Source of the DNA: a virus
Virus record (IMG/VR): IMGVR_UViG_3300010885_021009
Location: 1-42,322 of that record
Reading direction: 5' to 3' (one strand)
DNA length: 42,322 nucleotides
The stretch's first letter is position 1. Every line of letters begins with the position of its first letter. Below, piece after piece: positions 28,388 through 31,072 of the stretch. The translations under genes were made by a program, and so were the position numbers. A model generated the notes under the pieces. It was not told the DNA's origin. It did not search any database and worked only from the letters and a program-made list of their open reading frames with translations.

Positions 28388-29032
28388 TCATCCTCCTACA
28401 ATTTCAAGAAACTTCTTTTTTTGGGCGGCCCATGCGGCGGCCCATGCGGCGTCCCATGCGGCGTCCCATGCGGCGGCCCCTGCGGTGGCGGCCCCTGCGG
28501 CGGCCCTTGCGTCCCATGCGGCGGCCCTTGCGGCGGCCTCTGCGGCGTCCCATGCGGCGGTCCCTGCGGCGGCCCTTGCGGTGGCGGCCCCTGCGGTGGC
28601 GGCCCATGCGGCGGTCAATCCGGCGGCCCCTGCGGCGGCCCTTGCGTCCCATGCGGCGTCCCATGCGGCGGCCCTTGCGGCGTCCAATGTGGCGGCCTCT
28701 GCGGCGGCCCTTGCGGCGGCCAATTCGTCACCAATCGCTTCACCGTTTGCGTATCGTTCTGCGACGTCCAACGCATCGAGACTACGTTGATCTGTCATTA
28801 AATGCTGAACTTGACGCGCGCACCAAATGGCGAACAATCGCCATTCTTTCGCGTATTGCGGCTCAACGCGACAGCACCACAAAGCATCATACAGCCCGTT
28901 GATTTCAAGAATTTTAGCGAACGGCAATGGCTCATCGTCTGGCTTCGTTTTACCAAGACCCTTCAGCAGTTTTTCCCACCCATTTTGACACGGCGAGTGT
29001 TCGCGAATGCGATTTAAAGTTGTCGTAATCAT
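28388..29032 (-). CDS. Ala/Trp-rich repeat protein of unknown function
   Basis: This 214-residue protein has an ordinary N-terminal domain of about 105 residues (HSPCQNGWEKLLKGLGKTKP, LPFAKILEINGLYDALWCCR, QVQHLMTDQRSLDALDVAER) and a C-terminal half built of AAWDAAWxA-type units. Proteins with this opening and an Ala-rich tail occur in many phages; the N-terminal part recalls a predicted Imm5-type helical domain, but I cannot assign a function. The repeat part would form amphipathic helices with regularly placed Trp. The DNA of the tail (28421-28735) is a degenerate GCN array. Confidence 0.75.
   Translation of the reverse strand: MITTTLNRIREHSPCQNGWEKLLKGLGKTKPDDEPLPFAKILEINGLYDALWCCRVEPQYAKEWRLFAIWCARQVQHLMTDQRSLDALDVAERYANGEAIGDELAAARAAAEAATLDAARAAAWDAAWDARAAAGAAGLTAAWAATAGAATARAAAGTAAWDAAEAAARAAAWDARAAAGAATAGAAAWDAAWDAAWAAAWAAQKKKFLEIVGG
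28421..28735 (-). repeat. GCN-rich degenerate tandem repeat coding the Ala-rich tail
   Basis: Short units built from GCGGCCCATGCG- and GCGTCCCATGCG-like blocks (plus-strand view) recur about every 12-15 bases. The array keeps the minus-strand reading frame open; long frames on the plus strand here are a by-product of the composition. Confidence 0.75.
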
Positions 29033-29044
29033 CTTTAATGTCCT

Positions 29045-29392
29045 TTATCCAATTTGTTTAATAACGGGCGCTGTTTCCCAAAATTCATCCCACCACGGAT
29101 CACCGCTATCAGGATGAAACTGTGGGTCTTTCACATCGGGCCAAAATTCAGCAACAATTTCTTGAATTGTTTTGCCCTTATACAAATTATACGGCAGATT
29201 AGCGATAATCCAGAAATCATCGTCATTGCGGACCATCACAACGCCATCTGGAACTTCATCATTGGTGTTTGGTTCAATAACATCTCGGTTAAAGTCAGTA
29301 AAAGGACCAATCTGCTTTGTTACTAAAGCGTAATATTCTGGATAATCCGCTTCAGAAAACTCTTCGTTATTTATGCGTACTATTTCACTCAT
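29045..29392 (-). CDS. Acidic hypothetical protein
   Basis: A 115-residue acidic protein that opens MSEIVRINNEEFSEADYPEY and contains a Trp/Pro/Asp-rich end (DSGDPWWDEFWETAP). It is soluble, with no motif I recognise. ATG 29392 overlaps the upstream stop (TGATG); a GTG at 29395 would add one residue. Small acidic proteins of early phage operons are sometimes inhibitors of host enzymes, but nothing in the sequence shows that here. Confidence 0.68.
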   Translation of the reverse strand: MSEIVRINNEEFSEADYPEYYALVTKQIGPFTDFNRDVIEPNTNDEVPDGVVMVRNDDDFWIIANLPYNLYKGKTIQEIVAEFWPDVKDPQFHPDSGDPWWDEFWETAPVIKQIG

Positions 29393-29688
29393 CACTCACC
29401 CTCCGTCATATCCCAACGATAAACTTCGCCATTGGGGAGGTGGCAGTCACTCTCAACATCGCGCTGAACCCATTTCGCTTTAGCGATGCCATCAGCTTTT
29501 TCAACAGCCCTCGCCCAAAGCTCGTTGCCCTCCACCCGAAGCTCGTCGGCCTTCGCCGAAAGCTCGTTGCCCTCCACCCGAAGCTCGTCAGCCTTCGCCC
29601 AAAGCTCGGTGGCCTTCATCCAAAGCTCGTCGGCCTTCGCCACGAGCTTTAAGTGCTCAAGCCATTCTTTTTGCAGTGTCAGTGTCAT
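29392..29688 (-). CDS. Coiled-coil repeat protein (KADELW repeats)
   Basis: The 98-residue protein has heptad-like repeats of the form KADELWxKATELWxK and RVEGNELSAKADEL at about residues 15-65, then a small C-terminal part with CHLPNGEVYRWD. Similar proteins with WAEGxKL repeats and a closing LPNG or LENG segment occur in other phages, function unknown to me. A 42-base period is visible in the DNA (29521 and 29563). It starts inside the stop of the small basic gene (ATGA). Confidence 0.72.
   Translation of the reverse strand: MTLTLQKEWLEHLKLVAKADELWMKATELWAKADELRVEGNELSAKADELRVEGNELWARAVEKADGIAKAKWVQRDVESDCHLPNGEVYRWDMTEGE
29521..29604 (-). repeat. 42-bp tandem repeat within the coiled-coil gene
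   Basis: Two consecutive 42-base units start at 29521 and 29563 and differ at very few positions; shorter, more diverged 21-base units continue to about 29645. The period equals 14 residues, two heptads, so copy number can change without breaking the coiled coil. Confidence 0.75.
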
Positions 29689-29834: not shown

Positions 29835-30248
29835 TTACCCCGCTGCCAATAAATCAGGATCAATCTTGTAAAGCTGTTTCGGTTTAAGCGACTCTTTGCC
29901 TTGCCGTTTTGCCGCCTTTTCTGACGTAGGAAACGGCGCGGATTGAATAGGCTTTGTTGACACCTTTTTGACGCCTAGAGCCTTCTTTTCGCGCCGTATC
30001 GCCTTAGCCAATACAGGGGCTTGCTGGCGGGTTATTTCCTTGTGGCAAGGCTTGCATAGCAACTGCCCTTGGTCGGCCGTCAGCTTGGCGCTTTTATCAA
30101 GCTGCATCGCGTCCTGATCGAGATGATGAATCTCTCCACCTACCGCGACCCCTTGGCAAATTTCACAACGGGCGATTCCATCAAGCGCCATGGCACGTTT
30201 GATGATTTCGAGTTTCACGTTTGCTGAAAACTCACGCCGTGCTATCAT
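29835..30248 (-). CDS. HNH endonuclease family protein
   Basis: This 137-residue protein has an HNH (His-Asn-His type) domain with paired cysteines: CEICQ near residue 28, GEIHHLDQDAMQ with the catalytic His pair, then TADQGQLLCKPCHKEIT. The basic C-terminal third is a probable DNA-binding tail. It lies next to the cytosine methyltransferase, overlapping its stop by four bases, so a restriction-like, homing or packaging-related nick are all possible. The linker position alone cannot decide. Confidence 0.83.
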   Translation of the reverse strand: MIARREFSANVKLEIIKRAMALDGIARCEICQGVAVGGEIHHLDQDAMQLDKSAKLTADQGQLLCKPCHKEITRQQAPVLAKAIRREKKALGVKKVSTKPIQSAPFPTSEKAAKRQGKESLKPKQLYKIDPDLLAAG

Positions 30249-31072
30249 GCGGCCTCCATTTGCAAAATTGCCTTTCCAAGCAATTCCGGTATTTGCGGAA
30301 CTACGGCGTTCCCGAGTTGCTTAAGTCGGTCCACCCGTCCGGGAAACCCATCAACCACTTGACCCACCCCGGGTTCAACATCCCAGATGGTCGATCGATG
30401 TCCTTCACTGAGGCGCAAAGATAACCCTTCGCCAACATATGGGTATAGCTCTTGCTGCCAACCGGGCCACAATCCTTGTGCTCGCTCGCTCGCGGCGTCG
30501 GCCAGTTCTTTACCGCCGTCGCCAAACCGTCCCCGCTGTCCTTGCTCAACCCCTTTCGGTTGTGATTGCCCGTGACGGTTGGGGTAGGCCACAACCCATA
30601 ATCGGTCGCGGCGGTGAGGGGCACCAAGGGCGGAAGCCGGTATGCAATGCCATTCTGCATCATACCCGAACGCGGCCAAGTCTCCGAGAACACGGTCAAG
30701 CCCGCGACCAAGCAATGCTGCGACGTTCTCCACGAAAACGTAGCGCGGTCGTAGCTCGCCAATAAGTCGGGCATATTCTGACCATAGGCCGGAACGCTCG
30801 CCTTCGATACCCGCGCCTCGTCCGGCAACGGAGATGTCCTGACAGGGGAATCCGCCGCAAATAGCGTCAATTGTAATGCCTCGGTCATTCAACACCCCGG
30901 CGGTTAAGGTGGTAACGTCATCGAAAATCGGCACATCCGGCCAATGCTTGCGAAGGACCTTTTGAGCCTTTTTGTCGATCTCGCAGAAAGCGACGGTTTT
31001 AAATGCGCCACTGCGTTCAAGGCCAAGCGAGAAGCCGCCAATGCCGCTGAAAAGATCAAGAAGTTGATACAT
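30245..31072 (-). CDS. C5 cytosine DNA methyltransferase
   Basis: A 275-residue enzyme that methylates cytosine at C5, probably protecting phage DNA from restriction. Motifs occur in the usual order: I (DLFSGIGGFSLGLE, 6-19), IV with catalytic C77 in GGFPCQDIS, VI (VFVENV, 112-117), VIII (HRRDRLWVVA, 153-162), a target recognition region at about 165-245, and X (QLGNAVVPQIPELLG). It is short, mainly through a compact recognition region. A second open frame of 195 codons is nested in it. No cognate cytosine endonuclease is recognisable besides the HNH protein. Confidence 0.93.
   Translation of the reverse strand: MYQLLDLFSGIGGFSLGLERSGAFKTVAFCEIDKKAQKVLRKHWPDVPIFDDVTTLTAGVLNDRGITIDAICGGFPCQDISVAGRGAGIEGERSGLWSEYARLIGELRPRYVFVENVAALLGRGLDRVLGDLAAFGYDAEWHCIPASALGAPHRRDRLWVVAYPNRHGQSQPKGVEQGQRGRFGDGGKELADAASERAQGLWPGWQQELYPYVGEGLSLRLSEGHRSTIWDVEPGVGQVVDGFPGRVDRLKQLGNAVVPQIPELLGKAILQMEAA
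30301..30888 (-). CDS. Nested reading frame inside the cytosine methyltransferase gene
   Basis: This frame codes 195 residues on the same strand as the methyltransferase, shifted by one base, and covers the enzyme's codons 62-257. It starts at ATG 30888. Segments such as TSQHCLVAGLTVFSETWPRS, YGLWPTPTVTGN, WPTPRASEHKDCGP and a closing WVKWLMGFPDGWTDL look like a conserved phage protein, not random translation. I recall proteins with such WPTP and LMGFPxGWTDL motifs near phage cytosine methyltransferases. Whether it is expressed is unknown. No ribosome binding site stands out. Confidence 0.55.
   Translation of the reverse strand: MTEALQLTLFAADSPVRTSPLPDEARVSKASVPAYGQNMPDLLASYDRATFSWRTSQHCLVAGLTVFSETWPRSGMMQNGIAYRLPPLVPLTAATDYGLWPTPTVTGNHNRKGLSKDSGDGLATAVKNWPTPRASEHKDCGPVGSKSYTHMLAKGYLCASVKDIDRPSGMLNPGWVKWLMGFPDGWTDLSNSGTP

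Follow-up and report, generated by a model that had tools for sequence, protein, structure and literature searches.

Overlapping pairs of proteins that make up a single DNA methyltransferase (MTase) have been known since M.EcoHK31I was described in the 1990s, and the small subunit of this enzyme is reportedly translated from an alternative frame within the gene for the large one. The monomeric C5-cytosine DNA methyltransferases (C5-MTases; Pfam PF00145), with M.HhaI among them, are single polypeptides with motif IX in frame, and the +1 frame of their genes is unprotected from stop codons. In M.EcoHK31I (YGGCCR), motif IX lies on the smaller polypeptide, and the predicted target-recognition region (TRD) has been placed in the large subunit (PMC3404938). 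M.AquI (CYCGRG) is a C5-MTase split within its variable region into two polypeptides (PMC3404938). C5-MTases cut in two after motif VIII, ahead of the recognition region, are able to complement (PMC5944983).

Here we describe a related locus in a virus record of 42,322 bases, the whole of which is referred to as the window. An outer gene, alpha, has the catalytic motifs of a C5-MTase; a second open reading frame (ORF), beta, lies fully within it in frame +1, spanning alpha codons 62-257, with both on the minus strand (Table 1). Judged by sequence comparison, alpha and beta very probably form a single C5-cytosine DNA methyltransferase of the M.EcoHK31I kind, as its two subunits. Compared by description, the likeness to M.EcoHK31I lies in a large subunit with motifs I-VIII and X and a smaller polypeptide with motif IX. 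In contrast to that system, the window gene is a phage gene with no restriction endonuclease recognised adjacent to it in the genes examined, and its variable region is seemingly governed by beta. With M.AquI the locus shares a two-polypeptide division near the variable region, but the small subunit of M.AquI carries both motifs IX and X, whereas in the window motif X belongs to alpha and beta is fully nested. The M.AquI division, with IX and X together on the small subunit, is found in gp77/gp76 of Mycobacterium phage Peaches, discussed below. With the monomeric enzymes, the locus shares the large-domain fold of alpha and the motif IX pattern at the C-terminus of beta.

Layout of the locus

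The MTase gene is preceded by two co-directional genes, one of the RecT family (PF03837) and one of 168 aa. Gene junctions around the MTase overlap by 1-4 bases and resemble those of a coupled phage operon, and the 137-aa ORF downstream of alpha is likely co-translated with it. Two further minus-strand ORFs carry repeats: a 214-aa ORF (28388-29032), in which an Ala/Trp/Asp-rich repeat (AAWDAAWDARAAAGAA...) makes up the C-terminal half and where long ORFs on the opposite strand look like by-products of the repeat, and a 98-aa ORF (29392-29688) with short repeats (KADELRVEGNELSAKADELRVEGNELW).

The hexamer GGGGTG ahead of the beta ATG forms an anti-Shine-Dalgarno duplex of -8.8 kcal/mol, better than those of the other window ATGs tested in the beta frame. 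Across the family, ATGs in the beta frame cluster at codons 40-75, where 180 occur, against 1 and 16 ATGs in the two remaining frames; the start codon of beta differs between relatives. A family-wide Shine-Dalgarno test was non-discriminating, the pooled ATGs lying little above background.

Table 1. Features of the methyltransferase locus in the window
Feature	Coordinates	Strand	Basis
Alpha, predicted C5-cytosine DNA methyltransferase large subunit, motifs I-VIII and X, 275 aa	30245..31072	-	Pfam PF00145, AF2/M.HhaI match
Beta, nested +1-frame gene, 195 aa, ATG start, predicted motif IX/recognition subunit	30301..30888	-	Stop avoidance, silent-site suppression, homologues, PHROG 1008
Candidate Shine-Dalgarno sequence GGGGTG	30893..30898	-	4 nt upstream of beta ATG
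Beta residues 1-39, leader, stop-free, no residue-level constraint	30772..30888	-	4-fold divergence, stop counts
Beta residues 40-98 (SWRTSQ...ETWPRSGMM.NGIAY), over alpha motifs VI-VIII, both frames constrained	30595..30771	-	4-fold divergence
Beta residues 99-168, WPTP-repeat variable region, likely target-recognition region	30385..30594	-	Close-pair identities, alpha pLDDT
C5-MTase motif IX LNPGWVKWLMGFPDGWTDL, beta frame	30322..30378	-	Pattern counts, 4-fold divergence ~0.06
C5-MTase motif X (KQLGNAVVPQ), alpha frame	30293..30322	-	Weak profile matches, invariant G254 N255
137-aa ORF, sub-threshold HNH match, downstream of alpha, 4-base overlap with alpha stop	29835-30248	-	

The outer gene

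Alpha matches Pfam PF00145 with an E-value of 3.2e-45, although the match covers only positions 2-166 of the 324 in the profile. Both catalytic signatures, PCQ and ENV, are present, with P76 and C77 of the former and E115 and N116 of the latter invariant. A canonical C5-MTase profile aligns to alpha over positions 3-166 and again, weakly, over 281-301 at motif X, skipping motif IX. The alpha profile likewise follows M.HhaI through motifs I-VIII and then has a weak second match at 295-319, again at motif X. An AF2 model of alpha matches the M.HhaI structure with Z 23.8 and an rmsd of 2.5 over 205 aligned residues. The large domain is modelled with confidence; segments 177-214 and 230-238 have pLDDT values below 50, and the alpha frame across the region of beta residues 99-168 is mostly below 55. 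Both model and sequence make alpha look like a C5-MTase minus its small domain.

Stop codon avoidance in the nested frame

Under synonymous codon shuffling of the window alpha gene, a +1 open run as long as the one observed has p = 0.005. The open +1 run averages 229 codons across 116 related MTase genes, compared with 105 in within-gene synonymous shuffles, and 107 of these genes reach p < 0.05. Some members of this set had been found via beta, and the test was hence redone on 81 genes, including that of the window, which were gathered by the MTase alone; the expected number of stops was derived from each gene's own codon usage with the amino acids fixed. Over alpha codons 62-250 these 81 genes contain 7 stops in frame +1 against approximately 406 expected, and over codons 62-100 they contain 5 against 71. 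At codons 1-40 and 257-275, +1 stops are as many as expected, or more. Their number dips partially at codons 41-61 (40 vs 64 expected), which fits a beta start that varies between relatives. Stops in frame +2 are near expectation, except for an excess in the motif IX zone (223 vs 114). In a control set of 77 canonical phage C5-MTases found with M.HhaI, the number of +1 stops equals expectation (ratio 1.03-1.05), and in all 77 the +1 runs are shorter than 150 codons. Because the family loci are related, the counts lack independence, yet kinship falls far short of explaining an effect of this size.

On this comparative evidence, beta is a real, conserved coding gene. An earlier note on this DNA had pointed to a 195-codon ORF nested in a shifted frame inside the C5-MTase gene; that ORF is indeed present, its translation contains the peptides quoted there, and it coincides with the zone protected from +1 stops. 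The suggestion that the second frame might be coding is borne out by the stop counts. Frequent stops in this frame among related MTase genes, which would have spoken against it, are not what was found, stops being strongly avoided. The purifying selection that it proposed to look for is visible as a non-random substitution pattern with suppression of silent sites.

Selection on the two frames

In this overlap the third codon positions of alpha are the second positions of beta, and position 1 of alpha is position 3 of beta. Between genes of 65-80% alpha identity, fourfold divergence in alpha is 0.447 ahead of the overlap and falls to 0.336 across motifs IV-VIII and to 0.060 where the C-terminus of beta is encoded; past the beta stop it is 0.523. 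A sliding profile resolves this further: 4-fold third-position divergence is 0.53-0.67 at alpha codons 61-105, like the non-overlapping part of the gene, silent-site suppression sets in at about codon 101, and a value of 0.057 is reached at codons 231-245. Over beta residues 40-98, divergence drops to 0.27-0.48. This succession of normal silent divergence followed by suppression suggests that residues 1-39 of beta are a stop-free but unconstrained leader, and that the functional core starts from about residue 40.

In close pairs, the identity of beta exceeds that of alpha both in the motif IX zone (0.859 vs 0.793) and in the variable region (0.741 vs 0.648), where position 1 of alpha changes fastest; variable-region alignments between distant genes are unreliable. 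By these substitution patterns, beta is the dominant frame in the variable region.

Motif IX and the homologues of beta

The most constrained segment of beta, LNPGWVKWLMGFPDGW at the C-terminus, has the layout of C5-MTase motif IX. Its counterpart in M.HhaI is LHPRECARVMGYPDSY, and the C-terminus of beta fits the M.HhaI motif IX pattern LxPxxxxxVMGYPD. A motif IX pattern was found in the +1 frame of 74 of the 81 family genes, and in none of the 81 in either the alpha frame or frame +2. Among canonical MTases, it occurs in frame in 74 of 78. Both the pattern and its conservation identify the C-terminus of beta as the C5-MTase motif IX, which is absent from alpha.

Beta matches PHROG 1008 (E 1.9e-31), and tblastn matches were obtained in 206 phage records with a best identity of 46%. 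Such database matches are possibly a by-product of MTase conservation, and for this reason the frame itself was tested. Beta alone has no match in Pfam or NCBIfam, its profile gave only a chance hit against the PDB (E 1.2), and AF2 modelled it alone with low confidence (pLDDT 57). Among known defence-system families, PADLOC returned no match for beta, in a library that may not contain a fitting family.

A search of viral and bacterial genome contigs with the beta profile found no free-standing homologue away from an MTase, apart from one locus (L160) where the genes are split. Among 280 loci found by either protein, L160 is also the only one in which the beta match lies well clear of the MTase; the match otherwise overlaps the MTase in phase +1 or is a motif IX exception. 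The nearest approach to a separate protein is a barely overlapping split pair in actinophages.

Nested, split and fused relatives

Among 213 distinct loci, 188 have motif IX solely in beta, six solely in alpha and two in both, and the pattern missed it in the remaining 17; nearly every relative carries the motif a single time, in one of the two frames. In relatives of the L030 type, the motif lies in the MTase frame (LNPDWVEWLMGYP / LNPDWVEWLMGYPISWTD). The MTase of this type aligns to positions 2-321 of the 324 in Pfam DNA_methylase, compared with 2-166 for the window alpha, and the aligner places its peptide on the canonical motif IX, 'prkLtprEcarLqgfpds'. At codons 62-110 the nested frame holds a mean of 3.17 stops in the six alpha-only loci vs 0.06 in the beta-only loci. 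This is suggestive, in loci that are few and related, of a nested frame that is mostly degraded where motif IX sits in alpha. Five loci (L030, L034, L035, L036 and L038) have motif IX in the main frame and PTP repeats still readable in +1, an apparent transfer of the motif between frames.

The genes gp77 and gp76 of Mycobacterium phage Peaches (NC_013694; L282, 804-1899), both annotated as DNA methyltransferase, constitute a split C5-MTase. The product of gp77 contains motifs I-VIII and ends directly after motif VIII; gp76, in frame +1 and overlapping gp77 by about two dozen bases, contains the PTP repeats together with motifs IX and X. Adjacent paired MTase annotations like these are present in many mycobacteriophage records. 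The MTase of Mycobacterium phage Llama (L003, 1308-2067) is also annotated as two genes, because its alpha frame shifts midway; the gene is intact in ShroomBoi (L283).

In the viral contig L294 (1669-3910), motifs IV-VIII, the PTP repeats and motif IX are all found in one frame, and the beta profile matches the last repeats and motif IX. The same parts are distributed over two frames in a close relative, L293 (1891-3184). The simplest reading of these sequences is that the PTP repeats and motif IX represent the C-terminal, DNA-facing half of a C5-MTase. For the nested class, we infer an order of events in which the alpha frame reached motif X by overprinting the old motif IX, the older motifs VI-VIII being overprinted by beta.

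A probable two-subunit enzyme and its alternatives

We propose that ribosomes would initiate at two sites on this gene, one being the start of alpha and the other an internal +1-frame start. With motifs I-VIII and X, alpha would be the large domain, which binds AdoMet and performs catalysis; by docking on it, beta would complete the small, DNA-binding domain, and the two would form a physical complex whose activity would depend on beta. Beta would also carry the target specificity. The resulting enzyme would methylate phage DNA and probably protect it against host restriction; this anti-restriction role is suggested by two points: the MTase belongs to a phage, and the neighbouring genes examined include no recognised restriction enzyme.

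Some openness of the nested frame is favoured by the codon choice of alpha and by the high G+C content of relatives, and a few single genes are non-significant on their own in the shuffle test. We nevertheless give practically no credence to a chance ORF that is open and conserved merely through conservation of the MTase frame: the deficit of stops is confined to the ORF and is absent both from frame +2 and from canonical MTases, and the silent sites of motif IX are nearly frozen. Shuffles, stop counts, the canonical control and synonymous-site tests all led to its rejection. It also appears very unlikely that beta arose de novo by overprinting as an accessory protein outside the enzyme, such as an anti-restriction, nicking or immunity protein or a regulator of the MTase. 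In favour of this reading, where beta covers motifs VI-VIII it is written over a frame that already existed, and homologues of this part were found nowhere but in the overlap, but the most constrained segment of beta is a motif that L030-type relatives carry in alpha's own frame, the PTP repeats and motif IX belong together in the one-frame L294, and beta has no defence-family match in PADLOC, whose library may lack such a family. Among the roles that the earlier note had offered, a methyltransferase partner fits the presence of motif IX in beta and its absence from alpha; nicking, immunity and anti-restriction functions for beta find no support, its most constrained segment being an MTase motif. 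The separate phage proteins with the same motifs that the note mentioned did not appear as free-standing proteins among the 280 loci. The lack of homologues outside the overlap, which it had held to count against a coding frame, is not clearly what we see either, as homologues exist, though always tied to an MTase.

Two further readings concern how the two frames are used. Programmed frameshifting from the alpha into the beta frame would yield a fused polypeptide and no separate subunit. In the split L293 and Peaches genes, one +1 shift past motif VIII would give the canonical order of I-VIII, variable region, IX and X, of which L294 is a natural one-frame fusion. In the nested class, however, motif X is in the alpha frame and two shifts would be required; moreover, stop avoidance begins at about codon 62, well ahead of motif VIII, the beta-frame ATGs cluster at codons 40-75, and the window ATG has a Shine-Dalgarno-like site. 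The likelihood of this mechanism therefore seems slight. A two-subunit enzyme in which the TRD resides in alpha and beta gives motif IX only overlaps with our preferred explanation, and we consider it possible, if on balance doubtful. It would agree with the summary of M.EcoHK31I, where the predicted TRD is in the large subunit (PMC3404938), and the variable region of alpha is likewise open and partly conserved. Against it, close pairs conserve the variable region better in beta, with alpha position 1 the fastest to change, the variable region of alpha is predicted to be disordered (AF2), and the alpha of Peaches ends immediately past motif VIII.

The preferred reading, that of a two-subunit enzyme with its recognition region in beta, can be extended to the whole family. 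A recognition half built of WPTP modules may shuffle in the nested frame, and motif IX may be mobile between frames, giving rise to nested, split and fused enzymes in which beta sets the target; our judgement of this wider proposal is evenly balanced. Its least certain part is the setting of the target by beta, which is drawn from the close-pair substitution patterns, the predicted disorder in alpha and the Peaches split.

Distribution and annotation

Loci matching the beta profile were found in 80 bacterial genome contigs from many phyla, as well as in many viral contigs. Each of the 65 aligned beta proteins has a match in PHROG 1008. This family is named 'DNA methyltransferase', which implies a catalytic MTase, yet the matching beta proteins are without catalytic motifs and correspond to the nested partner.

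A related MTase subfamily is represented by Salmonella phage SW5 (L302, 2125-3048). The N-terminus of its alpha is different, but a comparable +1 frame is open in the gene, and its translation includes WPTP repeats and LNPNLSRWLMGLPPEW. DNA similar to the SW5 MTase is present in 68 of 5,426 complete E. coli genomes; the MTase DNA of the window has no match in E. coli genomes. In the single E. coli record opened (L383, 1495-2415), the outer gene alone is annotated, and the nested gene is without annotation in the opened records of the SW5 subfamily. Across this large family of phages and prophages, the second protein is for the most part absent from databases or wrongly named there. The two-polypeptide kind of MTase is already known; its spread, its misannotation under PHROG 1008 and the switching of motif IX between frames seem to be under-appreciated. 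We found no literature report of the nested arrangement across phages, in a search mostly confined to journals that need no subscription, which proves little.

Implications

Many of the 'DNA cytosine methyltransferases' annotated in phages and prophages are probably half an enzyme. Re-coding such an annotated MTase gene for expression would destroy the nested subunit, and would probably yield a dead enzyme. The nested partner explains why phage records carry double MTase annotations, and why there are PHROG 1008 'DNA methyltransferase' proteins that lack catalytic motifs. Finally, the nested, split and fused versions of this methyltransferase provide a natural series for the study of overlapping genes, covering their origin, the exchange of segments between frames and their separation.
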